A stretch of 64,000 nt of DNA from Pseudomonas poae (GTDB taxonomy: Bacteria > Pseudomonadota > Gammaproteobacteria > Pseudomonadales > Pseudomonadaceae), in contig CP110972.1 of the NCBI GenBank assembly GCA_028869255.1, forward strand, positions 2,485,001 through 2,549,000, given 5' to 3'. Position 1 is the stretch's first letter. Each line of letters begins with the position of its first letter. The notes under the pieces are model-generated. The model was not told the DNA's origin and searched no databases. It saw nothing but the letters and a program-made list of their open reading frames with translations. Below are positions 907 through 24,513 of the stretch, one piece after another. The position numbers and the translations under genes are program-made.

Positions 907-1848
907 GTGGTTGAAGTGGTCAGCAAGGCAGATAGGTACTTGGAGGCGAGCGTTCGTCAGAACACGTCGAAGAGCTATGCGGCCGCCCTCTCCCATTTCG
1001 AAATCACCTGGGGCGGCTTCCTGCCCACCACCACTGAGTCCGTTGTGCGCTACATCGCTGAGTACGCCGACCATCTGGCGCTGAGCACGCTGAAGCAACG
1101 CCTGGCTGCGCTAGCAAACTGGCACCAAAGCAACGGCTTCCCCGACCCCACCAAAGCCCCCAAGGTCAGGCAGTTGTTGAAAGGCATCCGGGCAGTACAT
1201 CCCGTGCAGCAGAAGCAAGCAGCTCCTCTGGCGTTATTGCACCTCGAAAAAGCGGTGGCGCGCCTGGAGGATGAGGTTGTTCAGGCAAGAGCCGTCGGCA
1301 ACATGACGGCTCTTCTCAAGGCGACCCGCGACATCGCTTTGCTCACAATTGGCTTTTGGAGGGGATTCCGCGGGGACGAACTGGCTAGGCTCACGATCGA
1401 GAATACGCATGCAGAGCGATACGTCGGGATCAGATTCTACCTGGGGTCTTCCAAAGGAGACCGGCACAACACCGGCCGTGAGTACAAGACGCCATCGCTG
1501 AACAAGCTCTGCCCAGTGGAGGCGTACCTGAACTGGATCGAAGCTGCAGGTCTAACTCGCGGCGGAGTGTTCCGGGGAATTGATCGCTGGGGAAACATCA
1601 GCCATCGGCCTCTCGCGGCGCACAGCCTGATACCCCTCCTCCGCGACACGCTAGATCGGTGTGGTTTGCCGTCGGAGATCTACAGTGCTCATTCGATCCG
1701 CCGAGGATTTGCCTCCTGGGCGGCAAGCTCAGGTTGGGACATCAAGACGCTAATGGAGTACGTCGGCTGGAGTGACATGAAGTCCGCGCTGCGTTATGTC
1801 GAGCCTGCGCAGCAGTTTGGTGGGCTTATTAGAAAGCTTGAAGGCTGA
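907..1848 (+). CDS. Tyrosine-type site-specific recombinase (TnpS-like)
   Basis: This 313-aa protein has the two-domain layout of phage-integrase-family recombinases: a SAM-like N-terminal core-binding domain (about residues 5-95) and a C-terminal catalytic domain. Expected active-site residues are visible: Arg155 in RGFRGDE, a probable Lys183, His262 and Arg265 in HSIRRGF, Trp288 in GWSD, and the nucleophile Tyr297 in RYVEP. The GTG start at 907 has a GGGGA ribosome site 6 bases upstream; the ATG at 902 is in another frame. The length is close to TnpS of Tn4651. With the divergent KfrA/TnpT-like gene it probably resolves cointegrates or excises the island. The recombinase call is secure; the TnpS assignment is inference. 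Confidence 0.88.
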   Translation: MVEVVSKADRYLEASVRQNTSKSYAAALSHFEITWGGFLPTTTESVVRYIAEYADHLALSTLKQRLAALANWHQSNGFPDPTKAPKVRQLLKGIRAVHPVQQKQAAPLALLHLEKAVARLEDEVVQARAVGNMTALLKATRDIALLTIGFWRGFRGDELARLTIENTHAERYVGIRFYLGSSKGDRHNTGREYKTPSLNKLCPVEAYLNWIEAAGLTRGGVFRGIDRWGNISHRPLAAHSLIPLLRDTLDRCGLPSEIYSAHSIRRGFASWAASSGWDIKTLMEYVGWSDMKSALRYVEPAQQFGGLIRKLEG

Positions 1849-2977: not shown

Positions 2978-3670
2978 CTAGACAAATTTCCAACCGTTCT
3001 TGGCATAGTTACCGATAGTTTCAAGCAGCTTCAGGGCCCTGTCTTTGTTAGATTTATTTTCCCTCTCCAAGCATCTTGATGCCAAGTCTTGCAGTCTAGC
3101 AACTTTGTCTAGTAGGGCCACCCGGTCAGCTTCAATAGTTTTTATTTGGTCTAGTTGGCAGTCTACGATCATTGCTCGCGCACGATTCGGCCTCGGAGCT
3201 CCCTTTTTTATAACGTATAGCCAGGCATCCATGATTTCTATGTTATCGAAGTAGTCATCAAAATAAGGGTGTATCCACGAGTATTCACCCGAGGCTGCCG
3301 TCAGCTCCGAAGCCCTTGAAACCACGGCATCCCCCATATCTCGCGTCGATTTTTGCATATTACATGGATGACAAGCCAAGGCTAAATTTACAGCGGTAAA
3401 AGCCCACTTTTTGTACTTGTCTTTAGACTTATCCAAGAAGTGCTCTATATCCTCTGCGGCATTTCTTCGCTCGATCTTTATTTTGCGCCTGCAATAAACA
3501 CATCGTCCATCCTGTTGCAACCTCAGGGACACACGCAGAGATTTTTTAAGATCGTCAAACACTGCATGCTTCCAATCAACTTCACCCGCAGCGAATCTTG
3601 CAATCTCACCAGAATACTTTTTTATGATGTCGTCATGCAGGGGCTTGAGTTGTGAAGGGCCGAGACTCAT
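2978..3670 (-). CDS. ptuB: Septu defence HNH nuclease PtuB
   Basis: This 230-aa protein contains an HNH endonuclease domain in its first half: paired cysteines Cys57 and Cys60 (CVYC), the core DIEHFLDKSK with His77, Asn95, and a second cysteine pair Cys100/Cys103 (CHPCN). The C-terminal ~100 residues are helical and probably bind the partner. It is encoded directly after an AAA/ABC-type ATPase with a 4-bp overlap, the organisation of type I Septu (ptuA then ptuB), in which the ATPase controls the nuclease during phage infection. Low G+C marks it as acquired. Other ATPase-plus-HNH systems exist, but protein sizes and order fit Septu best. Confidence 0.82.
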   Translation of the reverse strand: MSLGPSQLKPLHDDIIKKYSGEIARFAAGEVDWKHAVFDDLKKSLRVSLRLQQDGRCVYCRRKIKIERRNAAEDIEHFLDKSKDKYKKWAFTAVNLALACHPCNMQKSTRDMGDAVVSRASELTAASGEYSWIHPYFDDYFDNIEIMDAWLYVIKKGAPRPNRARAMIVDCQLDQIKTIEADRVALLDKVARLQDLASRCLERENKSNKDRALKLLETIGNYAKNGWKFV

Positions 3671-5076
3671 GCGTACTTCTCCCTCAGAACTCCAATTCGC
3701 TTTATAGTGTCATGAAGCGGGTCTTCAATATCCAGTTTTATATTATGACTGAGCAGGCTATCTGCCGCAGCTAAAAACCTTTCGGGTTCAGTATGGATGT
3801 CTGTCAGTGCCGTTAGGCAATCTTGTATGAGTGCTGCGACGGTAAGCGAGCGCGGGGAAATAAGTCCAAACTGCTCCGACAGAATAGCGTCAGCGTTACG
3901 GCCGTAAAGATCTGATTTTAACCAAGGCTCGACTGATGGGAGATCACGAACATAACTGATATCATTTGGAGCGCTTGAAACAATGAGCGGCGAATGTGTA
4001 GCAATAACAACGGTACATTCGTCAGCCATACTGCGTATTATACTTACCATATCTTTTATGATCTTCGCCTGCCATTGCGGATGCAGGGAGTTCTCGGGCT
4101 CATCGAATAACACCAGCGTGCGCTCTGTAACGCAAAAGCATAGCGCCAACGTACTCAACAAATAGAGCCTCTCACCGGAGCTCAGTGCGGACAGACCTAG
4201 CCGGCGGCTTCCTTTTTCAAAAACGATGTCATGAAGCTGAATTTCATTACCATATAGTTTCGCCAAGATATCTTCAGTCGCAACAGATTGCTGTAGAGTA
4301 TGATTGAACTCTAAAGTGACGCCTGATACCGCAGCGCGTCTATTATTGGCTCCCGAAACGGCCGACTGCTTTGGAGAAAATAATAATCTTACCCGCTGAC
4401 TAAACCCAATCTCATCAAGAATCTTACCTGCCATGCCACCCGCAAGCCCATTGCAACCCTCGCTTAGAATGTACCGGGAGAGTATTCTAAAAGGAGCTTT
4501 TTCGGACAAGATGTTGCTATTTATTCGATTGCCGAAATATAAGTATTCACAAGAATACTTTGATGTCTCGCTTTTCCTAGGAAAGCGATCATACATAGTG
4601 CCGGACAGACAAATTATCCTCTGACAATAATCTTGAACGAACGGGTTGTCTGCTAGAAATCTCAGGTAGCGAGACTTCCCCAAGCCGTTAACACCTGTGA
4701 TGACGTGAAACTTGCCTTTGTGCGGCAGTACGTTATATATCTTTTTCTTTTCTTCTATGTCATAAAAATCAGAAATCAGAAGTTCCTGAGCGGCTTCTTG
4801 GCGTTTGAAGTATTCCATTTTTGCCAGTTTGTCTTGAACCGCAAGGGCATCCCTTTCGCGATCCAACTCCTGGAGGCGTTCATTCTTCAAGGAGAGATTG
4901 AGTGCCTCCTGAGCTTGTTGAAGCCGACCAGATTCTTCATGTACCTTCTTATCTAACTGGTTAACCCTGTATTGCGCCTTGACGACTATTTCGGACAAGG
5001 CTTCCAGCCGCTTCCCTGCCTTAATTGCTACATCACCTGGAGCCTTGAGTCTGCCGCAGAACCTGTGAAAATTCAT
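3667..5076 (-). CDS. ptuA: Septu defence ATPase PtuA (start region disturbed)
   Basis: This is an ABC/SMC-like ATPase of 469 aa from the ATG at 5076. Residues ~20-100 are a coiled coil. Walker A is GVNGLGKS at 128-135; the signature is LSALSSGER; Walker B is LVLFDEPENSLHPQWQ; the H-loop is ATHSPLI. It overlaps ptuB by 4 bp, so translation is coupled. The ATG at 5076 has no good ribosome site, whereas a well-placed ATG at 5182 with an upstream GGA opens a frame that reads as a natural N-terminal extension but ends at 5033 in the other frame. The gene therefore looks as if it has lost or gained one base near its 5' end, and PtuA may be made only from the internal start or be inactive. Confidence 0.8.
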   Translation of the reverse strand: MNFHRFCGRLKAPGDVAIKAGKRLEALSEIVVKAQYRVNQLDKKVHEESGRLQQAQEALNLSLKNERLQELDRERDALAVQDKLAKMEYFKRQEAAQELLISDFYDIEEKKKIYNVLPHKGKFHVITGVNGLGKSRYLRFLADNPFVQDYCQRIICLSGTMYDRFPRKSETSKYSCEYLYFGNRINSNILSEKAPFRILSRYILSEGCNGLAGGMAGKILDEIGFSQRVRLLFSPKQSAVSGANNRRAAVSGVTLEFNHTLQQSVATEDILAKLYGNEIQLHDIVFEKGSRRLGLSALSSGERLYLLSTLALCFCVTERTLVLFDEPENSLHPQWQAKIIKDMVSIIRSMADECTVVIATHSPLIVSSAPNDISYVRDLPSVEPWLKSDLYGRNADAILSEQFGLISPRSLTVAALIQDCLTALTDIHTEPERFLAAADSLLSHNIKLDIEDPLHDTIKRIGVLREKYA

Positions 5077-9719: not shown

Positions 9720-10043
9720 TCACCGCGGCTCGCTGAGCTCACTAGCGATAACGTAGTAATCTCTGCCACTTAGACTGCGCATTAGCTTGAACCCCGCCCT
9801 CGTCTCAACCAGCTCTAGCGGAGGGGTCGCCACGGTCATTCCGTTCGTGCTCACGTTTGACTGATCGTTGTAAACGAGCGCGGCGTAATTCTGCCCTGCC
9901 TTTGCAGCGTTGATAAGGTAAGCGTCGACTCTCACCCCCCAGTCTATGCCCTGCGCTTGAAGGACTTCTGAGGGAAGATCCCGTTCAAGTTCAATCGGCT
10001 CGACAGCGTGGTCAAAAAAGTGCTTCATCACCGAAGTGGCCAT
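9720..10043 (-). CDS. Hypothetical protein downstream of the metallophosphoesterase (107 aa)
   Basis: The start ATG overlaps the stop codon of the metallophosphoesterase gene (TAATG), so the two were translationally coupled. The protein is soluble, with no recognised domain. It has an acidic N-terminal half (HAVEPIELERDLPSE) and a C-terminal segment rich in short beta strands. The tight coupling suggests a joint function with the phosphoesterase, now doubtful because that gene is frameshifted. Confidence 0.6.
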   Translation of the reverse strand: MATSVMKHFFDHAVEPIELERDLPSEVLQAQGIDWGVRVDAYLINAAKAGQNYAALVYNDQSNVSTNGMTVATPPLELVETRAGFKLMRSLSGRDYYVIASELSEPR

Positions 10044-10778
10044 TAGATTTGAATCTCGAAATAAGGGTCGAACCCGGTATTTTCGTTGGGATAGCCACGT
10101 GGGTTAGAGATCACCCGGCAGCCTGCGAATTCAACATCTGTAGCTTCATGCGTATGTCCGAACACCCATACGTGGGCCTTCTCGATCAGACGAAGCCAGT
10201 CGTTCGTGTACGCGGCGGTCAAATGCCCTTCATGCTGTTCGCCTATCACCACGGGCGATGGTGAGTGATGGGTCACCACTATCGTCTTGCCGCCAAACGG
10301 TTGAGCCAGCTCTTGGGTGAGCCAGTCCTTTGCGATGTGATTCCGGGTAATCAGGTCACCCGGTCTCAATCTTCTGTAGTTCGATTCTGCCCTGATGTAC
10401 TTGAAGTCGTTCATGCCTTGCCTGGCAGCGTTACTGGCCGCGACCTGGTTCCCTGTTGACGTGAAGTCAGTCCATGCTGTGCTGCCGAGGATTCTGACAT
10501 CCCCCAGAATCAGCGATTCGTTGTCCAGAACATGCACGTGGCTGGCCGCAGCGTCCTTCATCTTCTGCAAGGTGCGATCAAGGTGCCCGTCGTAATATTC
10601 GTGGTTCCCTGTGACGTACACGACCTGGCAGGCGAACGTCTCGTTGGCCCACTGGACTCCCCCTGACCTTTTTGTTGATATCGCCGGCGAGGATTACCAG
10701 GTCAACTCCACCATCAAGGGGCGGCGGGTCGAAACGGTGGAACTCGGCATGGAGATCTGAGTAAATTCTGATTCGCAA
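10043..10778 (-). pseudogene. Calcineurin-like metallophosphoesterase with a one-base frameshift
   Basis: All metallophosphoesterase motifs are present but split over two frames. The first frame (from 10778, TTG start) has SDLHAEF and LAGDIN. The second (to 10043) has VTGNHEYYDGH, VVTHHSP and VFGHTHE. The frames join if one C is removed from the C5 run at 10659-10663, giving a continuous product of about 244 aa. The intact enzyme would hydrolyse a phosphoester using two metal ions. The gene begins about 200 bp from a divergent XRE regulator. The extra base could be a real mutation or a homopolymer reading error. Confidence 0.8.
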
Positions 10779-11799: not shown

Positions 11800-12180
11800 C
11801 TAGCGCGTCCATTTCTCGACAATTGCCGCGCCGTGTAAAGCTTTCCACTGCTTCAATACTTTATGGTTAGCACCGCGAGTCTCTATCACTTCACCCGTGT
11901 GAGGGTTGAGGTAGCTCTTCAGCGGACGGGGCTTTCTTTTTTTAGCAGGTGAATTCAGTTGCCCTGCAGACACCTTAGAAAATTCTTCGGAGCCAAGGCT
12001 AGGATCAAGAAGCACTACTATGTCCTTCGAAGCAAACTGATACTTATCAGCAAGTGAGTCCAGGCGAGTCAGAAAGTTAAAAGCCTTGACTACCTCAGGA
12101 TCATTAACGAGCGGCATGGCAGTAGAGCATTCATTGGCAAGCCGATCATTTACTTCAAGTAGCTCAATCAACTTTTCCAT
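11800..12180 (-). CDS. MvaT-like (H-NS functional homologue) xenogeneic silencer
   Basis: This 126-aa protein matches the MvaT/MvaU family of Pseudomonas nucleoid proteins. The N-terminal ~60 residues are the helical oligomerisation region ending in KDIVVLLDPSL, like the VISLLDPD segment of MvaT. A basic linker KKRKPRPLKSYL follows. The C-terminal DNA-binding domain holds NPHTGEVIETRGANHKVLK (residues 92-110). Such proteins coat AT-rich foreign DNA and silence it; plasmid and island paralogues (Pmr type) modulate the host proteins. It is second in an operon after a truncated MvaT-like gene. Its location between Septu and Gabija suggests control of island expression. Confidence 0.85.
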   Translation of the reverse strand: MEKLIELLEVNDRLANECSTAMPLVNDPEVVKAFNFLTRLDSLADKYQFASKDIVVLLDPSLGSEEFSKVSAGQLNSPAKKRKPRPLKSYLNPHTGEVIETRGANHKVLKQWKALHGAAIVEKWTR

Positions 12181-12210: not shown

Positions 12211-12537
12211 TCAGGCATAAGAGCTTTCCCGAGCTCGGGATCGCTCATTTTTTGCGGGTTCTGCACCATCGACGAAATTGTTCTCAGTACTTCCATTTGG
12301 AATAAGATCTAGCAATGGATTCACACCCCGCTTGGTGAATTTTTCGCGCGCGCGGAGCAATTTGACAACTTGAGGCGTGGTATAACCAAACTCGATCATC
12401 AGTGCCTTGAGCTGAGTCTGAAACTCGATGTCCAGCAGATAGTCAGGCTGACCTTTCTTCTTCGACAGAGCGACCAGCATCGTGGCCAGTTGATGCTCAG
12501 CCAGCCGTAACTCGACAAGGGTATGCGACCTGCTCAT
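12211..12537 (-). CDS. MvaT-like N-terminal (oligomerisation) domain protein lacking the DNA-binding domain
   Basis: This 108-aa protein starts at ATG 12537 with GGTGG upstream; a GTG 12 bases earlier is possible. Residues ~5-65 resemble the MvaT dimerisation/oligomerisation region: LVELRLAEHQLATML, then LDIEFQTQLKALMIEFGY and PQVVKLLRAREK. The conserved GEVIET..NHK DNA-binding part is absent, replaced by a polar tail. It lies 30 bp upstream of a complete MvaT-like gene in the same operon. By analogy with truncated H-NS antagonists (H-NST type) it could form mixed oligomers and weaken silencing. The resemblance is seen; the antagonist role is inferred. Confidence 0.6.
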   Translation of the reverse strand: MSRSHTLVELRLAEHQLATMLVALSKKKGQPDYLLDIEFQTQLKALMIEFGYTTPQVVKLLRAREKFTKRGVNPLLDLIPNGSTENNFVDGAEPAKNERSRARESSYA

Positions 12538-12549
12538 ATCATCCACCAA

Positions 12550-13634: not shown

Positions 13635-15517
13635 ATGAAGCTGTGCAGCCTGCGGATATCCAATTTTCAGTCGTTTGGCCCTGTGCCGACCCCGATCACG
13701 TTCGAAGACATAACGTACCTCCTGGGCCCGAACGGCGCAGGCAAAACCGCAGTCCTCCAGGCTCTTTGCAGGCTATTCGCATTTGAGCCAGGGTTGCGTC
13801 GCGTCCGGCCTTCTGACTTTCACGTCCCAATTGGCCAGAGCAATGCTGAGGGCGGCAGCACGCTGTGGTTGGAGGCCGAGTTTAACTTCCCGGAGACAGC
13901 TGATGATGAGGACAACGATACAGTTGCTCCGCACTTCGATCACATGCGCCTCCAGGCTGCGGGCGATGTGCCGCGAGTTCGTTACCGCCTTACTGCCATG
14001 GTCGACGACGAAGGTGATGTCGAAGAATCGCTCGTCTACGTCACGCAGGCGGATGCCGATGGCAACCCCACCGTTAGCTCCATAGTTCCCAAGCACCAAC
14101 GCAACCAGATCCACCTTCACTACATCCCGGCCCGGCGTGATCCATCCGACCACATCGCGTATGGGGCGACAGCTTTACTCGGACGGCTATTGCGTGCGAC
14201 TCAATGGGGCGGCGATCGCAATACGGTCAAGGAGTTGACCGACCAGATTACTAACTGCCTCGCAGGTAATGCTTCTGTCAAAGCGCTCGGGCAAAGCCTG
14301 AATGCGTCATGGAAATGCCTACACAAAGGAGCGTTCTTCGCCGAGCCCAAGCTCACCTTCGTGAATTCGGACATCGAGATGCTGCTACGCCACATGTCGG
14401 TTTCATTCACACCGGGGCATGGAGTGAGTGAGGTAGATTTTTCTAGGCTGAGTGACGGGCAAAAATCGATGCTCTACCTCTCTCTGGTACTCGCTGCCCA
14501 TTCGATCAACCGTGACGTGAAGTCAGGTAAGAATACGGCTATTGATCCAGCCAAGTTGAAACCACCCGCATTCACCATCTTGGCTATGGAGGAACCCGAG
14601 AACAGCCTGTCACCTCAGTACCTGAGCAGGATTGTTAATGCTCTGAAAGGATCCATAGGTGTTGATGCTCAGGCACTGATCGCAACACACGCGCCCTCGA
14701 TGCTGCGCCGGGTTGATCCTGAGAACATCCGCTACTTGCGACTCGGCTCGAATCGGTGCTCTCTAGTCAGTGGCATCACGCTTCCCGCCAAGGATGATGT
14801 AGCCCATAAATTCGTCCGAGAAGCCGTCCAGTCCTTTCCCGAGATCTATTTCTCCCGGCTTGTAGTCTTGGGTGAAGGTGACAGCGAGGAGATCGTCCTT
14901 CCGAGGATTCTTCAAGCCAAAGGGGCGCCGGTCGACGAATCGGCGGTGACCATCGCGCCCCTGGGTGGCCGTCACGTGAATCACTTCTGGCGTTTGCTTT
15001 CCCAGCTCGGCACGCCGTACATCACCTTGCTTGATCTGGATCTCGCACGGTACCAGGAGGCTGGGGGCGGCTGAAATATGTCAACGACCAATTAGGGCTT
15101 TTTCAACCTTTCAAGGTTTTGCCCTATACGATCCCGGCCTGGGACAGCCATGAATTTAAAGTCAGAATCCACAACGGGGTCTCGTCTACATCACCAGAGA
15201 CCCTATTCGACCTCCTTGAACAGCGCGGCGTGTTTTTCTCGGCACCACTGGATCTAGACTTTGCCATGCTTACCGCCTTCCCTCTAGCATTCAACGCACT
15301 ACCTGCTGTTTCAACTTCAGAAAGCCAGAAGGCGGTTCTCGGAAAAAGCCATCAAGGCGCTGATCAATACAGCCCGCAAGAGCAGGCTTGGTTCGATGCC
15401 TACCACCATCTCTTCAAACTCGGCAGTAAACCCGCAGCTCATCTCACCGCGCTATCCAGCCTCTCTGACGCTGATCTCCTCGCCGGCCTCCCACCTGCAC
15501 TGGATCGACTTCGCTAA
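13635..15517 (+). pseudogene. gajA: Gabija defence nuclease GajA, interrupted by a one-base deletion
   Basis: The N-terminal part is an OLD-family ATPase: MKLCSLRISNFQSFG start, Walker A GPNGAGKT (31-38), signature LSDGQKSML, Walker B LAMEEPENSLSPQ and ATHAPSML. A TOPRIM domain follows with VVLGEGDSEEIVLPRIL and DLDLAR. The frame stops at 15072, but the +2 frame continues at once with GRLKYVNDQLGLFQPF and runs to 15517. Restoring one G near 15064 gives the family sequence EGWGRLKY and a protein of about 627 aa. In Gabija, GajA is the DNA-nicking nuclease. As it stands the product lacks the end of TOPRIM and the C-terminal domain. Confidence 0.85.
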
Positions 15518-15550
15518 CGCGGTGATTGCAGCGCTAGAGGAGTCACCGGA

Positions 15551-17233
15551 GTGATTCACCCTGACCGTTGGACGCCTTCACCTGGGCTGACTCTGGAAAC
15601 GAACGCTTGGCACGCTATCAAGGACACCCAGCATTCGCTTGTCCTTTTGGCGGGGCCAGGCGCAGGCAAGACGGAGATATTAGCCCAGCGCGCGGATTTT
15701 CTCCTGCGCTCTGGCAGTTGCCGGTATCCCAAGCGAATTCTTGCGATTTCCTTCAAGTCCGACTCAAGTCGCAATCTTAAGGAACGTGTAAGCCTGCGAT
15801 GCGGATGGGAGCAAGCAACACGCTTCGACAGCTTCACGTTTCACTCCTTTGCCAACCGAATTGTCAGTCGCTTTCGGGTGTTATTGACCGGCTCAGAGGC
15901 TCTGAACCCTGGTTACTCAATAGGCAAAGAGGCCATTCCTGGCGAGCAGATTACCTTCATGCAGCTGCTTCCCATGGCGCTCAAGATTCTGCGTACAAGC
16001 AAGATCGCCCGAAACACTATCCGTCAGACCTATGCGCACGTATTTCTCGACGAATTCCAGGATTGCACCTCAGATCAGTACCAACTGATCAAGCTCCTGT
16101 TTGAAGGAACGCCGGCGCTCCTGACCGCTGTAGGCGACACCAAGCAAACCATCATGGGTTGGGCCGGCGCGTTAGACGGCATCTTCAAGCTTTACGCCAA
16201 TGACTTCGCCGCCCGACCACTACGGCTCTACCGAAACTTCCGATCCAAGCCGCGCCTGCTGCGCATGCAGAACAGCGTCATTCGGGATATCGACCCTTCG
16301 GCCCTTATGCCCGACGAATTAATCGACGGAGACAACGGTGTAATCCGCGCAGGAAATTTTTCCTCGAGCACCGCTGAGGCCGTTTCTCTGGCAAACCTGA
16401 TCCAGAAATGGATTGAGGTCGAAGAGTTAAGACCAGCCGAGATCGCCGTTCTTTTCCGCGGTGAAATCGATCTGTACGCGGAAGAACTCATGGAGCAGCT
16501 GACGCTTCGTAACATACCCTTCCGCAATGAGAACACCCTTCAGGACTTACTCAAGGAGCCTGCAGCCAGGCTGATGATCGACTACCTGACCTGCCTCTAT
16601 ACGCGAGGCTCCAATAAGGCTTGGTCGCGGCTGATGGATCTCTTCGCGCCGTTTGATGATGAGGGCACCAGCGACAGAACTCACAAATCGTTCGAGCTTT
16701 GCTACAAGCAGCATCAGCAGCAGGTAAAGGCGGCAGCAAAGACAACGACCCCTTACGCCGATTGGTGGAAGCTCGCCAAAGAGTTCTTCGACACCTTGGG
16801 GCATCCCGTGATGACGGCTCTTTCTTCAGACTACGAAACCAAGCGACGCCTGAAGGAGATCATTCGCGATACTCGTAATCACATCACCACCCTCCTGCAG
16901 ACAGAACCCGACTTGCCAAGGGCGCTTGCCCGGTTCTCCGACGACAACGCAGTGAGATTCTTATCCATGCACAAAAGCAAAGGATTGGAGTTTCATTCAG
17001 TGATCATCTCCGGAGTCGAGCAGCAAACCTTCCGCGGTAAAATCGAGGACGAGCGACAGGTCTTCTTCGTCGCAGTCTCTCGAGCAAAGGATCGCCTGAT
17101 CATCACCACGGCGAACCAGAGGCAACGTCCAGCGGGAATATCGGCGGGCAAAAGATGGGATGTCGCGAGACAGCCGCACGTGACCTTCGTCACCTACGTC
17201 ACCGAGCATCTGTCGCCCAAACAGCCGCAATGA
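15551..17233 (+). CDS. gajB: Gabija defence UvrD/Rep-like helicase GajB
   Basis: This 560-aa superfamily 1A helicase has the expected motifs: Walker A LAGPGAGKTE near residue 35, motif Ia AISFKS, DEFQDCTSDQYQ (motif II), VGDTKQTIMGWAGA (motif III), LYRNFRSKPRLL (motif IV), FLSMHKSKGLEFHSVI (motif V) and FVAVSRAKDRLII (motif VI). It begins 33 bp after the end of the restored gajA reading frame. A GajA-like OLD nuclease plus a UvrD-like helicase defines Gabija, where GajB senses DNA ends and activates GajA. The gene appears intact. Confidence 0.88.
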   Translation: MIHPDRWTPSPGLTLETNAWHAIKDTQHSLVLLAGPGAGKTEILAQRADFLLRSGSCRYPKRILAISFKSDSSRNLKERVSLRCGWEQATRFDSFTFHSFANRIVSRFRVLLTGSEALNPGYSIGKEAIPGEQITFMQLLPMALKILRTSKIARNTIRQTYAHVFLDEFQDCTSDQYQLIKLLFEGTPALLTAVGDTKQTIMGWAGALDGIFKLYANDFAARPLRLYRNFRSKPRLLRMQNSVIRDIDPSALMPDELIDGDNGVIRAGNFSSSTAEAVSLANLIQKWIEVEELRPAEIAVLFRGEIDLYAEELMEQLTLRNIPFRNENTLQDLLKEPAARLMIDYLTCLYTRGSNKAWSRLMDLFAPFDDEGTSDRTHKSFELCYKQHQQQVKAAAKTTTPYADWWKLAKEFFDTLGHPVMTALSSDYETKRRLKEIIRDTRNHITTLLQTEPDLPRALARFSDDNAVRFLSMHKSKGLEFHSVIISGVEQQTFRGKIEDERQVFFVAVSRAKDRLIITTANQRQRPAGISAGKRWDVARQPHVTFVTYVTEHLSPKQPQ

Positions 17234-17335: not shown

Positions 17336-18415
17336 CTACGGTGCGCCCTTTGACCTGAGCAGCCGAACAAACACCCATGAGATCGCCTGAAATTCTTTGG
17401 GGGTCAGCGATTCGGTCGCTTCCTCCAGCATCCTGGCCAACCCTTCCTCTAGATAGTTTCGGGTGGTAGCCGCCGCCACCTGCAGCCTGGTAGTAGGGAA
17501 CTCGGCACTTTCAGATCGGGTGATCTGGTTTATAAGCTTGCCTTCTTCCGGCGTGATGAGCCCGTACGCGATTCCCAACAACCAATACGCTACCGCAATT
17601 TCCCGCGGGCTCGCGGTGTCAATCGAAACCTGAGGCGATGTGATCCTTTCAGTTATGCCGCTACTGGGGGATCTGAAAGGAACATGAAAATAGGTACGCG
17701 CAATGCCTGGGCTCAACCGATAATAGGTGGATGAGTGTAGCCATAATCCCATCAAAAACTGTAAGCCGCTGCCCACTTGTCCATTCCCGGCTTTTTCGCC
17801 AGCTTTATCGCAGAGGACACGTTGGTACCAGTGCTGAACCCGCTGAGTCAGCAGCAACAGCTTCCGGTTATTCGCGACTACTGAATCAGGCGCTGCCCTT
17901 CGCAGGGCAAAATCAACGTCCAGTCGAGACAATGGGCTATCTAGATACTCCTAGTAGCCCTGCCATCCCCGATCCCGTAGATCCTTTGGCCGCTCAATAA
18001 GCCGGGTAAGGAGGACAGGACGATCGTGAAGTACGCACACAGATGCGCCGCGCATTTTCCATGACTTTCGCCAGATTGGTGTCTGGCAGGCGCTGATGTC
18101 GTTCTGAAAACACAACCGGCAATATTTATTGTCTACTCCGGACGGGACTGTGTGGGATTCAACCATCTCAAACTGAGCAAGGATTTGGGGCCTATGATTG
18201 CACTTGAACAGATCTAGAAATGCAGAAGATTTGTAAATCAGATCTAAATCACCCTTCACTCCGGGGTCTCGGGCCGCCAGGCGTAGGATTTCTGTCTCGA
18301 AAGTCGAATCGACGTAATTTAGATGGAGCATCCGGTTCAACCACGACGACAGTGATTCGTCGTGCAGTGGCTTCAGGAGCCCGTAAAACGCACGCACCGT
18401 CGAGCCCCTACTCAT
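17336..18415 (-). pseudogene. tniQ: TniQ/TnsD-like target-selection protein with an in-frame amber stop
   Basis: The N-terminal 154 codons carry the TniQ signature: KPLHDESLSSWLNRML near the start and a zinc-finger-like region YCRLCFQND...C...CVLHDRPV. A TAG at 17951-17953 interrupts the frame after DRGWQGY. The same frame continues as EYLDSPLSRLDVDFALRR for another ~200 codons to 17336. Without the stop the protein would be about 359 aa, close to known TniQ. TniQ recruits the transposition ATPase to its target site. The gene overlaps the upstream ATPase-like gene by 8 bp. The element is probably no longer able to choose targets normally unless the stop is suppressed. Confidence 0.8.
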
Positions 18416-19247
18416 TGCTTACGGGTGGCCCGTCGCCAGCCCCGTCTTCGAAATCTTCGTCGTGCTCGTTCTCGACAAGCAACTGCTGATAGACCTTGCT
18501 CCGTGAGGCTCGAGCGATGGCGCCACGCTGCAGATACAACCACTGAATAATCCTGACTGTAAGGCCTATCAGTCCATGTGATTCGCGATACAACTGGGAG
18601 ATATCAAGCGACATGAGGAGGTCTGAGCCCAACGAATATGCCTGACAGACTCTTTCCACGAAAGCTTGGTAGTCCTGATCAAGCTTCATCGGTTGCAGCA
18701 CCTTGATCTCGCTAGGAATGCCAGCATCCACGAGTCTTGCATGGTGGAGCTCTACTGCGTCAGTAAGCCCACTAAGTATGAGCAAGGGCGGACGCCGCAG
18801 GCGGGGAATGCTCAAAAGTGTCTCCATGTTAGGACGGACGCCCCGATACTCAACGTCTTTGTATTTCTGCGCATCCTCCATGACTAATACATCGTACTGC
18901 CGCAACTCTAAAATCCCGGCGCACATGTTCGATAGGCCATGGAAGCAGGGTATGGAACTTACCGTACCCACCCCCAGGCAATGGAGCAATTTAGCGTGCA
19001 AGTATTTGTTCCCAGGAAACGGGGTGTCATCCAGCATCAGCACTCGCTTTCCATCCTTACGCGCTCGGGCGGATACTCTTTCCATCAGCATGGACGACCC
19101 GGCCCCCGATAGTCCGGTGATGCAGATGGCCCGGGGCATCGTTCCTTGATGCTCGGCAATCGCAGCCAGACAGTCCCGTAAGACCGAGTCATTGCTAGTA
19201 TTCGCAATCCACGGGGACAAGTCCCCAACAGGTCTGATGGCTCGCAT
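18408..19247 (-). CDS. Second TniB/TnsC-like AAA protein with a defective P-loop
   Basis: This 279-aa protein has an AAA-type core similar to TniB/TnsC. The nucleotide loop reads GLSGAGSS (45-52), lacking the Lys normally found before Ser/Thr. The Walker B region is VLVMEDAQKYKD and sensor 1 is LLILSGL. It lies 3 bp after the canonical TniB gene and overlaps tniQ. The loss of the P-loop lysine suggests weak or no ATP hydrolysis and a structural or adaptor role, perhaps linking TniQ to TniB. Tn5053-type elements normally have only one such ATPase. Confidence 0.7.
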   Translation of the reverse strand: MRAIRPVGDLSPWIANTSNDSVLRDCLAAIAEHQGTMPRAICITGLSGAGSSMLMERVSARARKDGKRVLMLDDTPFPGNKYLHAKLLHCLGVGTVSSIPCFHGLSNMCAGILELRQYDVLVMEDAQKYKDVEYRGVRPNMETLLSIPRLRRPPLLILSGLTDAVELHHARLVDAGIPSEIKVLQPMKLDQDYQAFVERVCQAYSLGSDLLMSLDISQLYRESHGLIGLTVRIIQWLYLQRGAIARASRSKVYQQLLVENEHDEDFEDGAGDGPPVSNE

Positions 19248-19250
19248 TCC

Positions 19251-20237
19251 TCACTCACTCGTTGCCATGGTGATCCGCGCATTCTGGATCAAGAGGGCCT
19301 GAGCATCGGCTTTCCCATGAAGCCTATCTGCTGCAGTTTGGAGGCTCACGACATCGATGTACTCCTCACCCGAAATAACGGCGTGGCGACATGCCTCCTT
19401 CAAAATGTCGATCATGGTTCTCAGTGAGCTGCACTTGCTACGAGCCCGGAATTTTTTACCCTTCTGTGTCTTGGCTCCAACACGCGCAGGCAACGCCAAT
19501 TCGTACAGCTTGTCGCGGAAAAGGGTTGATGACACTCCGGATGGAAGTCGCAGGGGCATGTAGCACATGAAGGACGCAATGAAGGATGCAAGCAGATTGT
19601 CTTTTTCCCATTCAGGCAGCTCAGTCGTGCGATGCCCGTAACGCGACTGAATCTGGTCGTCGAGCTCCAGCATATCCTGGAGCTCGTTGGTACCGCACAG
19701 GATCACATTCAAGCCCCAGTCCTGATTAGAGAAGCCCTTCAATGCCTCGAACATATTGTGGAGCCGCTGGCTCGTCACGCGCCGGTCAAGACCATGGGCT
19801 TCGTCGAAAATGACTGCGCGGATATTGAGCCGTCGGACAGACTGCTGTGCTTCTGCGTAGTCTCTGGGACTGAAAGTGTAAGCCTTACCACGGACAATCA
19901 TCCCCAGTTCCTGCAGGAACCTTTTCTCCAGATCGACACCTTTCTTGCGATTGGACAGATCGATGTACATGACCTTTCCTGCCCAACCTCCCTTGTCGGA
20001 AGAGCTCTCCTCGCTCCACCGCTGAGCGAGCCTGCTTTTTCCGACGCCAGGAGCCCCGATAACGGCCATCCCGGGATTCGCCTTTACCCTCGGCAACGAC
20101 ACCAGAAGCTTGGCGCATTCAGTCAGCGCGGTACCGTAGGGATGGGGTACCCACACATCTCGGTAGCACAAGAGCGCGCGCTCTTCGGGTGGCAGGAGTA
20201 AATACTCGCGGGTCTTCCTGGTGAGGTGATCGTTCAT
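19251..20237 (-). CDS. tniB: TniB/TnsC-like transposition ATPase
   Basis: This 328-aa AAA+ ATPase has Walker A GAPGVGKS at 61-68, Walker B AVIFDEAHGL with DEAH at 145-148, and sensor 1 NVILCGTNELQ. This is the TniB/TnsC regulator family, which binds target DNA as filaments and activates the DDE transposase. The start ATG overlaps the tniA stop by 4 bp, showing translational coupling, and the next ATPase-like gene follows after 3 bp. The gene is intact. Confidence 0.88.
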   Translation of the reverse strand: MNDHLTRKTREYLLLPPEERALLCYRDVWVPHPYGTALTECAKLLVSLPRVKANPGMAVIGAPGVGKSRLAQRWSEESSSDKGGWAGKVMYIDLSNRKKGVDLEKRFLQELGMIVRGKAYTFSPRDYAEAQQSVRRLNIRAVIFDEAHGLDRRVTSQRLHNMFEALKGFSNQDWGLNVILCGTNELQDMLELDDQIQSRYGHRTTELPEWEKDNLLASFIASFMCYMPLRLPSGVSSTLFRDKLYELALPARVGAKTQKGKKFRARSKCSSLRTMIDILKEACRHAVISGEEYIDVVSLQTAADRLHGKADAQALLIQNARITMATSE

Positions 20238-22234
20238 ATGTCCTCATCCAACTCGGCGATGATGATCGGCATAGGCTTAGTTGGCTTCGCATCATCGGGT
20301 TCACTGGGCGCTTGCGTCGGCCCGAAATGCCCCATACGCTCGAGCTGGGCGACATCCTCCTGAGCCTTCTGGATGGCTTTAGCCTCCTTCTTGCCCTTCG
20401 CCTTGATGATGTTGAGTTGCTCCTGAGCATCCAGGCGCTTGTCATCAGCGTCGGTGTCTTCACGCCTTGCCTTCAGGATCATCTTTTGCTCAGCTAAAGT
20501 GAGTGGCTCAGTGTGCGGATTGACCAACCAGAGGGGATGCCAGTGATCTTTATGAAGCCCCCATATCCTGTGAAGATTATTTGGGTCGATCTTAATATAA
20601 ATTTTCTCGCCGACCATCTTGGAGAAAGGCCCGAACTTATAAACCAATTCGCGCGTAACAACACCATTACGTGCTACGGTTACCTCACGCCCTTCTAGAA
20701 TATCAATAACAAATCGGCCTGGGTCGGAGACTGTCGGCGGTGGAATTATCACGCCGTCGTGCAGACCATATTTTCGCTCAAAGCGCTGATTGGGCGACAA
20801 CTGATCTTTGCGACCTTTCTTGTTATTAAACTTACATATCCAGACGATTATGAGCTCGGTCAGTCTCTCTAATGTGTAAACTGCTTTTTTATGAGGCTTA
20901 TAACCAGGCCCCTTCTTAGTGGCAGAGGCTGTGGCACCATCCAAGGTTTGGACGAAGCTCCGGTTTAGTATCCCTAAGCCCCTCTCCACCCCGCCTCCCG
21001 ATTCAGGGCGCAGTCGTGGGATGTGCTTGATATCTTCGTGGTCGCAGGCAACCCTGTAGCTTTCGGCCATTAAATCAGATCCATGATCTACGACATATTG
21101 CACCGGCTTTCCATAGAGTGGCCAATGGAGATGAGAAAGTCCGAACTTAGCCAAAAGCGCCGTTTTGGGACATAAGGCCATATGTACGGCTGCAGATATG
21201 CTAGCGCGTTTTGGAGCGCCGAATAATAGTGCAAACCCCATGATGCCCTGTGTGTCTCGATCACGGACGAGCGTGAGAAAGGCCCTGCCCAAAGGGTCAC
21301 CCGTAGGAGAAAGCGCATGGCAGTCTAATGGCGTGTGGTCAATATCATGAATTCTCCCGGGATAGAACTCTTCCACAGTGGGTGTGGGATAATTACCGAA
21401 CTTCGCTTGCGCTGCTTCAGGCCCATCAGTTGACTTAAGCCGATCTCTCTCCGAAAGTGCATGCCAACGTCTCCACACAGTGGTACGGCTGGGAGGACGC
21501 TTGTTGATATTTTTGCACTGCAGCTGGATCTCATCCAGCGCCTCAGCGTCGTTGGCACCATAGTTAATACGATGACTATCAAACACTGCAGTGATTATCG
21601 CATCCACATCAGGGTCGATGCGTTTTTCACCTGGGCGTCTGCCATCTTTACCCGCTATCTGCGCTCGCCAATCAGGGTTCAGAAGATAGATGCGTTTTAT
21701 TTTGTGGAAGATAGTCGGGCCGACCTTCAATTCCGCCATGGCCTGGCGCTTGGAAATCGGATCGACCTTCGCGCAGTGCTGACGCATTATATCCGTTCGC
21801 CGTTGAGCCTCCGTTTCCGCCTCGCTCTCAGCTTCAGTAACCGGAACTGGCTCATGCTCACCCAGACTTGCTCGAAAGTGCTCGTGGTGCTCGGCCAATG
21901 CTGCGATGGCTGCTTTGTCAAAATGGCCATCCATTGTGACGACGTTCTTCTGAGAGACAGTACGGAAGGTCTCCACGCCGATTATCGTTTTGAGCCTGTA
22001 GGTGTTAGATGTGAGGTCGTAGGTGACCACTTCGTAAACCGAGAACGCCGGACTAGGGATTGATACTTCTTCAGCGGCCATTGGATCGTCGATGCCCGGA
22101 TTGCCCTCAACAGGCGTGGAATCCTGCTCTTCGCTGGGGGCGAACTCGCCTGGCGATCTCGCGACTTTAGCGTCGATGGCTTCACTGACTTCATCAACTG
22201 TAACTAGCTCACCGATACGCACCAGGGCGGTCAT
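20234..22234 (-). CDS. tniA: TniA/TnsB-like DDE transposase
   Basis: This 666-aa protein belongs to the Mu/TnsB/TniA transposase group. Residues ~150-260 hold helix-turn-helix DNA-binding segments (PISKRQAMAELKVGPTIF and RPPSRTTVWRRWHAL). The catalytic rve-type core has Asp299 in IHDIDHTPLD, Asp383 in VVDHGSD and Glu417 in GGGVERGLG; the last spacing of 33 residues fits a D,D-35-E enzyme. The Mu C-terminal beta-barrel follows (VARNGVVTRELVYKFGP), then a charged helical tail rich in Lys, Glu and Gln that may contact TniB. It cuts and joins the element ends. The gene overlaps both neighbours by 4 bp. Confidence 0.9.
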   Translation of the reverse strand: MTALVRIGELVTVDEVSEAIDAKVARSPGEFAPSEEQDSTPVEGNPGIDDPMAAEEVSIPSPAFSVYEVVTYDLTSNTYRLKTIIGVETFRTVSQKNVVTMDGHFDKAAIAALAEHHEHFRASLGEHEPVPVTEAESEAETEAQRRTDIMRQHCAKVDPISKRQAMAELKVGPTIFHKIKRIYLLNPDWRAQIAGKDGRRPGEKRIDPDVDAIITAVFDSHRINYGANDAEALDEIQLQCKNINKRPPSRTTVWRRWHALSERDRLKSTDGPEAAQAKFGNYPTPTVEEFYPGRIHDIDHTPLDCHALSPTGDPLGRAFLTLVRDRDTQGIMGFALLFGAPKRASISAAVHMALCPKTALLAKFGLSHLHWPLYGKPVQYVVDHGSDLMAESYRVACDHEDIKHIPRLRPESGGGVERGLGILNRSFVQTLDGATASATKKGPGYKPHKKAVYTLERLTELIIVWICKFNNKKGRKDQLSPNQRFERKYGLHDGVIIPPPTVSDPGRFVIDILEGREVTVARNGVVTRELVYKFGPFSKMVGEKIYIKIDPNNLHRIWGLHKDHWHPLWLVNPHTEPLTLAEQKMILKARREDTDADDKRLDAQEQLNIIKAKGKKEAKAIQKAQEDVAQLERMGHFGPTQAPSEPDDAKPTKPMPIIIAELDEDI

Positions 22235-22953
22235 GGCTCCATCCCCTTGATGTCAAAGATCAGTCCACGCGGAGTGGCGATCACTGTAGGGTCAGGGTCG
22301 CCCTGTGAGAGGAATGTCGTGATGTCATGGATTCGACGGAGCATGAGGGATTTCGTGGGTGCGCTCACCCCTGCTGTTGCGCAATAGATTTGGATCAGCC
22401 GGCACAGATCGACTTTGGTGCCCAAGACTTCGATTTGACCTGCGTCAGTGAGAACCAAGTTTGATGCCACCATTTCGGTGATGACACCTTCCCTGATGAA
22501 GTCCTCCTCATAAGGAAGGATCCTGGATGACGGTTCTGACTGTACTGGAGGTTTCAGGTGTCTGGTGTGCTGAGCTGGCTGGGGCTTGTGGGACTTCTTC
22601 GCTGCGACGCTTGTGTCTACCCGGCCAGCGCTCAAGCTCGTACGCCTAGCCATCCGCGCAGTGTAAAATGCTGACTCGTGGCTGGAAATGTAGGCGTACG
22701 CGGCTGCCACCAAATCCTCTTTCCCATCTAGGACATCGTGATTTCCTTTCGGGGTCTGTGCCACGATCAAGATGCGTAGACGCTCGACCGCGACCAGCGC
22801 CGGAATCACCAAAACATCCTTCTGCTTGGCAGTCCTGACTTGACCTTTACCCCACTTGAGGATGCGGACGCGAGCACCCGCTGAGACCTTGCCGGTGACG
22901 ATGTAAAGCTCGGGGTCATCTCCGTGCGTGACAAATGCGCCGACATAGGTCAT
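22231..22953 (-). CDS. Unknown first gene of the transposition operon (240 aa)
   Basis: This is the promoter-proximal gene, overlapping tniA by 4 bp, the position TnsA holds in Tn7. The catalytic Glu, Asp and Gln-x-Lys of TnsA are not evident, so it is not called TnsA. Residues ~10-55 look like a small SH3-like barrel (VSAGARVRILKWGKGQVR). A Lys/Pro/Gln-rich linker follows (~115-140), then a predicted helical C-terminal domain (LCRLIQIYCATAGVS). It may be an accessory DNA-binding or regulatory factor for the transposase. No clear homologue was recognised. Confidence 0.65.
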   Translation of the reverse strand: MTYVGAFVTHGDDPELYIVTGKVSAGARVRILKWGKGQVRTAKQKDVLVIPALVAVERLRILIVAQTPKGNHDVLDGKEDLVAAAYAYISSHESAFYTARMARRTSLSAGRVDTSVAAKKSHKPQPAQHTRHLKPPVQSEPSSRILPYEEDFIREGVITEMVASNLVLTDAGQIEVLGTKVDLCRLIQIYCATAGVSAPTKSLMLRRIHDITTFLSQGDPDPTVIATPRGLIFDIKGMEP

Positions 22954-23016
22954 TACAACTTACCTCAAGTGAGTAATATTCTTTAAGGTTTAGCAGCAAT
23001 TAAGGGCGGTGCAACT

Positions 23017-23131
23017 GGAAATTTCGCAAGTTTATAAGCTATTGTTTTATACACAAATATTGATTTTTGTGTTTCGCGAACTTGTGAAATTTGCGTTTTG
23101 AAAAATCGGTGGTTTGTGGAATTTTTGCGGG
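23017..23131. repeat. Related AT-rich repeats upstream of the transposition operon; candidate right transposon end
   Basis: Three similar sites occur: GGAAATTTCGCAAGTTT (23017-23033, the inverse of the others), GAACTTGTGAAATTTGCG (23078-23095) and GTTTGTGGAATTTTTGCGGG (23112-23131, weaker). Between the first two lies a palindrome, ACACAAA-N8-TTTGTGT (23051-23072). Multiple transposase-binding repeats near the gene-proximal end are typical of Tn7-like elements, but they could also be operators. The exact terminal bases and a matching left end were not found. Confidence 0.45.
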
Positions 23132-23224
23132 CAGTCGTAATGGTGGCAAGGGGTTAGGGTGAATGCGGAGGTTATTGGATACAGACACGTCAACACTGAC
23201 GCTTAACCCCATCGCAGCATTCGC

Positions 23225-23833
23225 TCAGTGTGCCCGTTCCATATCCTCAAACACGGACTGCACAGCATCACTCTGATCAGGCGGCGAAAGTTTAAACAGG
23301 CGATTAGCCGCGCTCAGGCTGAAGGTGAGTTTCATTGAGAGCAGCAGGCAGAGAACGGCGGGTAAAAAAGCCAACCAGGCTTCAGGTTGTCCAAGCCCGC
23401 CTAAGTAAAAATGTAGCCCCATGAATGCGGTGTAGACACCCAACCCAATCAAAATTACGTAGAGGGGTAAATTCCCGTAGGTCTTGGCATTGTTACCTTG
23501 TGCCATGCGTTGAAAGCGACGGCCGTCTTCGGATATATGCACAAAATCACGGGCGACGAGGTAGTCCTTGAGCGCTGCATAGGCATGGTCCTGATACCCC
23601 AATGCCAGGCGCAATGCTCGCGCATCAAGATTGATCCGCATATTAAAAGCCTCGCGTACGTCCATCACTAGCACCAGCGGGTGTGCCTTGCACCACTCTC
23701 CGGAATGGACCAGATCACGCAAGCGTTGTGTTCGCTGATGAGAGATGCTGGCCGTGGTGTGGCGCCATGTTACGTATAACGTCGAAGCGGGAATAAGCAA
23801 CGCGAAGACGGCTTGCCATACCTGAAAATCCAT
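23225..23833 (-). CDS. Hypothetical membrane protein (202 aa)
   Basis: One hydrophobic segment lies at the N-terminus (VWQAVFALLIPASTLYVTW) and two more around residues 124-172 (LPLYVILIGLGVYTAFMG and WLAFLPAVLCLLLSM). Between them is a ~95-residue cytoplasmic or periplasmic domain with AFNMRINLDARALRLALGY. The family is not recognised. It begins 14 bp after the thymidylate-kinase-like gene on the same strand, so they are probably co-transcribed. It sits just outside the candidate transposon end. Confidence 0.65.
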   Translation of the reverse strand: MDFQVWQAVFALLIPASTLYVTWRHTTASISHQRTQRLRDLVHSGEWCKAHPLVLVMDVREAFNMRINLDARALRLALGYQDHAYAALKDYLVARDFVHISEDGRRFQRMAQGNNAKTYGNLPLYVILIGLGVYTAFMGLHFYLGGLGQPEAWLAFLPAVLCLLLSMKLTFSLSAANRLFKLSPPDQSDAVQSVFEDMERAH

Positions 23834-23847
23834 TTAAGGCTCCTTGC

Positions 23848-24513
23848 TCAAGATTGACTGAATATAGACTTCATCTCGACGCACTTGATAGTGGTTGCCG
23901 ATCGCTTCAGAACACCATAGATCTCAGAAACCACGTGCATCGTTGCCTCTTCGATTGTTCCTTCATTACGGCATAAAACCCAGCCATGGTCCGCAATCGC
24001 TTGCTCGAATGCGCGGGTACACGCGACATGCTGTTCCTGCGCATGAATCAGCGTACTGCCCAGGCCGCGACGGCGCGCCGCTGCCCTCCTCCATGAAATA
24101 TCAGGCGCGGTGACAACACCGACATGCAGATCTGGCACTTGCACGTTGCGATCCATGTTCAGCTGCAAAATCTCTGCAAACGGGACTATGTGGCGAAACG
24201 CGGCATCCGACGGGTACCAGCGATCAATCAAGATAATGCTGGCTGGTGGCTGTTTAACCAGCACCTGGTGGGAGATCCAGTGACGGCTATCCGCAAAGCG
24301 TTCGCATACTTCCAACTCCAGATCCCGCGTGGGATTCCTCACGAGTTTATTCACCAGGGCCATTGTTTGCGCTCTGTAGGGGTCGCTTTTGCTTTCGCAC
24401 AGTCGGATCACCGTTTGGTTATCTGCCCTCAGTACTTTGGTGACGGCCTCCAACAGTGTGGTTTTACCGACGCCCTTGGGCCCATCTAGAGAAACAAACA
24501 ACGGACGTTTCAT
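23848..24513 (-). CDS. Thymidylate-kinase-like P-loop protein
   Basis: This 221-aa protein has a P-loop GPKGVGKTT at residues 11-19, a Walker B-like segment SIILIDRWYPSDAAF in the position of the DRY/DR motif of dTMP kinases, and a lid-like RRAAARRRGLG. It is slightly longer than a typical Tmk and lies far from usual tmk neighbours, so it is probably not the housekeeping enzyme. It may phosphorylate a nucleoside monophosphate or another small substrate. A co-transcribed membrane protein follows 14 bp later. Confidence 0.7.
   Translation of the reverse strand: MKRPLFVSLDGPKGVGKTTLLEAVTKVLRADNQTVIRLCESKSDPYRAQTMALVNKLVRNPTRDLELEVCERFADSRHWISHQVLVKQPPASIILIDRWYPSDAAFRHIVPFAEILQLNMDRNVQVPDLHVGVVTAPDISWRRAAARRRGLGSTLIHAQEQHVACTRAFEQAIADHGWVLCRNEGTIEEATMHVVSEIYGVLKRSATTIKCVEMKSIFSQS

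Follow-up and report, generated by a model that had tools for sequence, protein, structure and literature searches.

A Tn7-like element with a second, pseudo-ATPase TnsC located beside the dif site in Pseudomonas

The window analysed here is a stretch of 64,000 nucleotides from the 6.8 Mb chromosome of Pseudomonas poae (G000; GCA_028869255.1, contig CP110972.1, positions 2,485,001 to 2,549,000), and it contains the left end of a Tn7-like element of 57,900 bp. A five-gene transposition operon lies at this left end, and the order described for it in the initial annotation, which was made from the letters of the window, is present with all genes on the minus strand (lengths in amino acids, aa):

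22231-22953, minus strand: X, the first protein, 240 aa
20234-22234, minus strand: TniA/TnsB, DDE transposase, 666 aa
19251-20237, minus strand: TniB/TnsC, AAA+ ATPase with an intact P-loop (GAPGVGKS), 328 aa
18408-19247, minus strand: pseudo-TnsC (pseudo-ATPase), 279 aa, P-loop GLSGAGSS
17336-18415, minus strand: TniQ with one in-frame TAG, pieces of 154 aa and 198 aa

The proposed assignment to a Tn7/Tn5053-like operon agrees with the family matches: TniA matched Mu-transpos_C (Pfam, E 7.6e-05) as well as TnsB in a sequence search of the PDB (2.2e-23), TniB matched the TniB family (Pfam, E 7.6e-19) and the N-terminal piece of TniQ matched TniQ (Pfam, E 1.9e-09); throughout, E-values from shuffles and profiles refer to single comparisons. 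TniQ, which had been taken as one frame, is interrupted in this copy, its two pieces (17951-18415 and 17336-17932) being in the same frame and divided by a TAG at 17951-17953; an open TniQ is found at the corresponding place in L004 (347 aa), G024 (347 aa) and G370 (362 aa). Because of this interruption, the window's copy of the element is probably not self-mobile.

The 279-aa protein has an AAA+ fold of the TnsC/TniB type and is a paralogue of TniB, and the missing P-loop lysine (GLSGAGSS) that had been pointed out for it was borne out. When 398 genomes of the genus were searched with profiles, 23 were listed, among which 11 contained both parts (rows judged by reading); with the genome of L004 (G411) these make up the 12 pseudo-ATPase elements considered below. 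The Walker-A lysine and the Walker-B DE pair are absent at all 12 loci. The five-gene order, whose recurrence elsewhere had been put forward as a check, was found again in L004 (Pseudomonas sp. ANT_J12), which has intact reading frames for all five genes, in G024, and in G370, where TniA is split in two frames, while the pseudo-ATPase and TniQ form a single protein of 627-887 aa in G053, G135, G056, G278, G049, G318, G250 and G293, which gives a fusion in 8/12 loci and a separate gene in 4/12. It is likely that this dead TnsC paralogue works together with TniQ. An alternative would be that pseudo-TnsC is a negative regulator, a dead subunit that enters TniB rings or filaments and limits or ends their assembly with no part in the choice of target; the loss of Walker A at every locus and the homology to TniB are compatible with such a poison subunit, as are the four loci in which it is a separate gene, but the eight fusions tie it to the target-selector side and make this reading rather unlikely.

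The end given for the operon region in the initial annotation, 23131, is internal to the element. The left terminus is at 23187 and the right terminus lies 34.7 kb past the left edge of the window (window coordinate -34712). The features of the left end are:

23188-23192: left copy of the target duplication, with an exact right copy outside the window
23170-23187, minus strand: left terminal inverted repeat TGTCTGTATCCAATAACC, 16/18 matches with the right terminus TGTCTGTCTCCACTAACC
23104-23121, minus strand: left-end repeat TTCCACAAACCACCGATT, TnsB-binding-like, with a close right-end copy TTCCACAAACCCCCGTAA (site scan)
23072-23089, minus strand: left-end repeat TTTCACAAGTTCGCGAAA, part of the matrix set
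23022-23039, plus strand: left-end repeat TTTCGCAAGTTTATAAGC in the opposite orientation, part of the matrix set

The 5-bp duplication reads TGACG in the orientation of the element and its exact copy abuts the right terminus, and the 18-bp terminal inverted repeats match at 16 positions. Repeats resembling transposase sites occur at both ends of the element (by eye and matrix scan); since the matrix was made by eye from left ends, the right-end copy is the only independent one. The left terminus, TGTCC, was set by comparing G135 with G056. In the first searches, for which the stretch was too short, neither the window nor the first 35-58 kb of each element yielded the right end. Three other elements were sized, at 78,129 bp (G056), 119,997 bp (G053) and about 146 kb (G024), and the four measured elements span 58-146 kb. 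Their terminal repeats start with TGT, the exception being the right end in G024 (TGC). Defined ends with target duplications, which had also been proposed as a check, were obtained with exact 5-bp duplications in 10 of the 12 pseudo-ATPase elements.

The sequence ATTTAACATA is common to the right flanks of three elements, and we take it to be part of dif, which has an XerC arm and an XerD arm. dif is the single site of the chromosome at which chromosome dimers are resolved. Nearly all circular bacterial chromosomes carry this short site, and it was single-copy in every searched genome with a match. In the four long elements the distance from the right terminus outward to the start of dif is 30, 29, 28 and 32 bp (30 bp for the element of the window), and in each case the XerD arm faces the element. 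Outward searches from dif added six pseudo-ATPase elements whose duplication is exact, at 29, 26, 30, 27, 26 and 29 bp, and located the right end of L004, on a separate contig. All 10 elements resolved in this way (both ends plus exact duplication) are on the XerD side of dif at 26-32 bp, with a mean of 28.6 bp; in G278 a right end was found at 26 bp without a matching duplication, and in G370 the outward search gave no matched left end. The duplications are exact but differ in sequence, the elements have one fixed orientation and dif is intact outside the element; since insertion leaves it intact, dimer resolution should still be available to the host. The position, the ends and the duplications are read directly from the DNA, and that these are dif-targeted Tn7-like elements is close to certain.

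The terminus region is known as a soft spot for mobile DNA, and it could be argued that adjacency to dif results from selection or from recombination at the terminus, by means of tolerated insertions or XerCD-borne entry, and not from target recognition; the presence in G022 and G011 of a further end-like sequence across dif could be read in the same sense. This explanation is improbable considering the exact but differing 5-bp duplications, the fixed orientation, the 26-32 bp spread over ten elements and the intact dif, and if XerCD had carried out the integration, dif sequence should be present at the junction.

Concerning these two genomes, XerD-side end-like sequences resembling the pseudo-ATPase type were observed in L176 (G022; TGTCTGTTTCCACTAACC) and L177 (G011; TGTCACCAGCCCCCGAAA), the other element of each genome being located on the XerC side. 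Judging by these sequences, dif may be hit from both sides.

Relatives without a pseudo-ATPase were compared in the same manner. Sixteen genomes without pseudo-TnsC were considered, and the end test covered 11 of them, leaving out G272 (no dif found), G270, G288, G395 and G229. Six of the 11 tested elements are on the XerC side of dif, at 33, 63, 42, 32, 36 and 35 bp; G100 matched only with a longer upstream stretch, and the 36 bp value is ambiguous as it belongs to G163, with a 9/18 end match. The difference in side (10:0 vs 0:6) gave a Fisher p of 0.00012. As a control, left ends were paired with dif under a strict test (TGT within 100 bp of dif), which was passed by 12/19 pairs from the same genome and by 7/342 mismatched pairs. 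On the other hand, the other five tested elements without pseudo-TnsC (G202, G101, G085, G063 and G311) showed no accepted match at dif, which weighs against the targeting of dif; of these, G101 has TnsA (Pfam) and G085 and G311 have a 222-aa gene at the same place. In a TniA tree of 26 rows (G370 and G293 were left out and L040 is a long branch) the 16 rows without pseudo-ATPase form one side of a branch with support 90/99, a split that is consistent with a single origin of the pseudo-ATPase module. The difference in side follows this tree and therefore likely reflects one event. That pseudo-TnsC with TniQ sets the side of insertion is a tentative proposal, to which we give somewhat less than even odds.

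The site without the element was partly observed in the related genome G017, where the conserved gene that flanks the window's element on the left is separated by 28 bp from the right-flank sequence, beside dif; G017 lacks 0.7 kb adjoining the left terminus, so that the exact empty junction is unreadable. Likewise, the conserved flanking DNA adjoins dif in related genomes that lack the element. A thymidylate-kinase-like gene (Pfam, 5.4e-07) and a 202-aa gene occupy window positions 23225-24513, between the element and a prpB-like gene (24736, by eye); the former is found next to dif in G017 and G005 as well, and no match to it was obtained at that site in G004.

A conserved gene is present at the dif-proximal end of the three long elements compared (window, G053 and G056). 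It was found at 10 of the 14 dif loci searched, with weak matches in G202, G288 and G278, and no match was obtained at the remaining loci, G051, G100, G395 and G101. A profile of the members from ten pseudo-ATPase elements matched that of the G202, G288 and G278 members (98.8% over 322 columns; G278 is itself a pseudo-ATPase genome). The G202 member scored 2.5e-10 against XerC and 1.8e-6 against XerD, both far below the curated cut-offs, and it is therefore related to XerC/XerD without being one of them; the ten members from pseudo-TnsC elements are joined to it through the profile match only. Pfam gave nothing convincing for nine end proteins tested or for that of the window, and a sequence search of the PDB returned a ribosomal protein at 0.8 as the only match for three end proteins and 5odo ("Isomerase", 0.005) for the G202 member. 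Kinship of the end protein with the TnpS-like recombinase of the element (see below) was considered and rejected, as the two did not align. That this Xer-related protein helps to read dif is plausible, at slightly under an even chance.

It has also to be considered that host XerCD marks the site and is read by TniQ alone, the end protein and pseudo-TnsC having other tasks. Elements that lack pseudo-TnsC and have a plain TniQ are likewise located next to dif, and Tn5053 senses resolvase-bound res sites according to the title of a reference cited in PMC11406308; the fact that divergent elements share the end protein on the side facing dif, and that its family has a Xer-related member, speaks against this option, which we regard as unlikely, although less so than the poison-subunit role of pseudo-TnsC.

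Protein X, encoded before tniA as tnsA is, invites the idea of a degenerate TnsA. The initial annotation had noted that no TnsA catalytic residues are visible in it, and both Pfam and the alignments agree: X has no Pfam match, whereas the gene at that place in L045 matches Tn7_TnsA-like_N at 2.8e-19, and X did not align to the L045 gene or to three same-position genes elsewhere (0.1%). Profile searches, suggested earlier for this protein, did not place it in TnsA; instead, its wider family gave a colinear match to the N-terminal region of TniA that leaves out the catalytic domain. X was thus rejected as a TnsA, and a degenerate TnsA is very improbable. The predicted structure comprises an N-terminal Tudor/SH3-like barrel and a C-terminal helical part; structural matches were weak and limited to the barrel (1-53), so that the missing TnsA-like match is uninformative, the helical part being barely covered. 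In 9 of the 12 pseudo-ATPase elements the gene before TniA encodes X or an X-like protein; none was recognised in G278, G049 and G318. These three show that X and the pseudo-ATPase, which had been supposed to form one joint branch, are separable; the part of that proposal which placed the pseudo-ATPase in target selection is supported by the TniQ fusions and the dif-linked insertions, which make such a role a reasonable one to infer. Binding of X to the element ends is conceivable, and our confidence in it was lowered from even odds to just below them after a control comparison.

TnsA was not matched in the five operon genes, to which this Pfam search was confined. Since TnsA is missing, transposition would be replicative, through a cointegrate, and a candidate resolution system is located at the left edge of the window:

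1-700, minus strand: TnpT-like coiled-coil partner, 329 aa, extending left of the window (KfrA_N, Pfam, 9.5e-11)
701-906: intergenic stretch between the TnpS/TnpT-like genes, the expected place of rst (position only, no search for the site made)
907-1848, plus strand: TnpS-like tyrosine recombinase, 313 aa, candidate cointegrate resolvase (Phage_integrase, Pfam, 8.9e-09)

The two genes are divergent and conserved in the elements of the window, G053 and G056. The recombinase, in which R, K, HxxR, W and Y were identified by eye in the alignment, shares 61% identity with its G053 counterpart and 63% with that of G056. No serine resolvase TniR was seen beside the operon (list of open reading frames, by eye; the full 58 kb was not searched for one). 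The TnpS/TnpT-like pair fits replicative transposition, and replicative transposition with resolution by this pair is likely.

The element has those features of Tn7-like transposons that were examined: a TnsB/Mu-type DDE transposase, a TnsC-type ATPase, TniQ, TGT/ACA ends, repeated sites and a 5-bp duplication. It resembles Tn5053/Tn402 in its TnsA-less tniA-tniB-tniQ core and in having a site-specific recombination site as target (res in the Tn5053 family), and differs in the dif target, the additional X and pseudo-TnsC, the tyrosine TnpS/TnpT-like pair and the size of 58-146 kb. Tn5053-type elements hunt res sites (PMC11406308); in the 10 resolved pseudo-TnsC elements dif, and not a res site of a Tn3-type resolvase, is the target. 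The Tn7-like elements with tyrosine resolvases that make up clades 2 and 3 of Benler 2021 (PMC8649781) share with the present one branches without tnsA, the tyrosine recombinase, a predicted replicative pathway and cargo of defence systems, and the available part of that article mentions neither "dif site" or "Xer" nor a dead second TnsC. Tn6022 combines a small TniQ with a separate tyrosine-recombinase-related selector, TnsF, but has TnsA and targets comM, and TnsF is encoded beside tniQ, whereas the Xer-related protein found here is at the far end (PMC10293859); this article contains no "dif site", XerC or XerD and compares TnsF with XerH. Membership of Tn6022/AbaR (tniC-A-B-D-E) was rejected since tniE is TnsF there and the element has TnsA. 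In type V-K CRISPR-associated transposons (CAST) it is the element's own TnsC that lacks canonical Walker motifs (PMC11406308), while here the protein without them is additional to an intact TniB and is fused to TniQ in 8/12 loci; in the same article XerC does not occur and the "dif" strings, of which 12 of 45 were inspected, belong to words such as "different". Tn4651-type Tn3 transposons carry TnpS/TnpT, likewise a divergent tyrosine recombinase plus helper, on a Tn3-type instead of a Tn7-like element (PMC7157771). The P. syringae Pbo island (PMC8473136) was discarded because the visible part of its table gives Tn7-like protein A as the annotation of the first gene and lists no second ATPase.

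TnsA-less Tn7-like elements with tyrosine resolvases, TnsC without Walker motifs and res-hunting Tn5053 types are already known. Among the titles and abstract openings surfaced in the literature (subscription papers lay outside the scope), no Tn7-like element targeting dif was found, nor any case of a dead TnsC that accompanies a working one and is fused to TniQ.

Based on the evidence above, the best explanation, with a probability of roughly 0.7 for the whole including the mechanism, is a TnsA-less, Tn5053-like Tn7-like transposon that inserts beside dif and whose left end is the five-gene operon. In the mechanism that we infer for its proteins, TniQ with pseudo-TnsC, perhaps with the Xer-related end protein, would recognise dif or XerCD-bound dif, as Tn5053 senses resolvase-bound res sites, and this recognition would set the spacing and side of insertion. 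TniB would be the working TnsC, assembling beside the dif-recognising complex, and pseudo-TnsC a non-hydrolysing AAA+ subunit that couples TniQ to TniB assembly. TniA would then cut the 3' ends and join them at 26-32 bp from dif, the right end facing the site, the TnpS/TnpT-like pair would resolve the cointegrate product and X would bind the ends as an accessory or repressor. More speculatively, and with rather less than an even chance of being correct, a family of such elements would use the dimer resolution site XerCD/dif as an attachment site that is read by TniQ joined to the dead TnsC with help from a self-encoded Xer relative; the gain of dead TnsC would have accompanied a switch from the XerC to the XerD side, and the dead paralogue would now be part of the target selector.

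The use of dif as target of a Tn7-like element would surprise a specialist. The family also provides an example of a dead TnsC that persists alongside a working copy and, in most loci, is fused to TniQ. Being short, near-universal and single per genome here, dif would offer a very general and safe attachment site. If a transposon reads this site, the Tn5053 principle of seeking out the sites of recombinases would be extended to a site that belongs to the host itself. Transposition would then be coupled to chromosome segregation, and the large islands with defence genes (58-146 kb in the four measured elements) at the Pseudomonas chromosome terminus would be accounted for. Furthermore, the two insertion sides constitute a natural experiment on the direction and distance of Tn7-like insertion, which may be useful for programmable insertion.

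Outside the genus there was no match among 368 other genomes of a class sample or among 298 other genomes of a phylum sample (one query; the sample includes some of the genus), both searches being limited by their first pass. Among near relatives the operon was not found in phages (DNA search), nor X in plasmids (protein search), where TniA matches had 26-30% identity.

The remainder of the window within the element contains cargo and conserved accessory genes:

2978-5076, minus strand: Septu-like cargo, PtuA at 3667-5076 (PADLOC, 1.4e-45) and PtuB at 2978-3670 (PADLOC, 1.2e-32)
10043-10621, minus strand: conserved metallophosphoesterase (Metallophos, Pfam, 4.8e-06)
11800-12180, minus strand: MvaT-like xenogeneic silencer, 126 aa (MvaT_DBD, Pfam, 8.2e-19)
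12211-12549, minus strand: small conserved gene, 112 aa, beside the MvaT-like gene, no Pfam match
13635-17233, plus strand: Gabija-like cargo, GajA and GajB

GajA is in two pieces in different frames (13635-15074 and 15119-15517; PADLOC 1.6e-247 and 9.9e-40), so that it is, with TniQ, one of two interrupted genes in this copy, and is followed by GajB (15551-17233; PADLOC E = 0). The metallophosphoesterase shares 72% identity with G056 and 59% with G053, and the 112-aa gene has 64-aa matches in the G053 and G056 elements and a match in L004 seen by eye and DNA. Left of the window (L093, L094), defence-like cargo was recognised by eye, consisting of a second pair of ATPase and UvrD-like helicase and a nucleotidyltransferase-like gene. 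Positions 2506-2853 (stretch about 2491-2888), by eye an aldehyde dehydrogenase fragment within the element, show 80% identity to G000:C1:19866-20249 and 68-80% to relatives. Finally, in L152 (G293) a second short TniA-like piece of 119 aa (14424-14783; 5.5e-08) was observed between the X-like gene and TniA.

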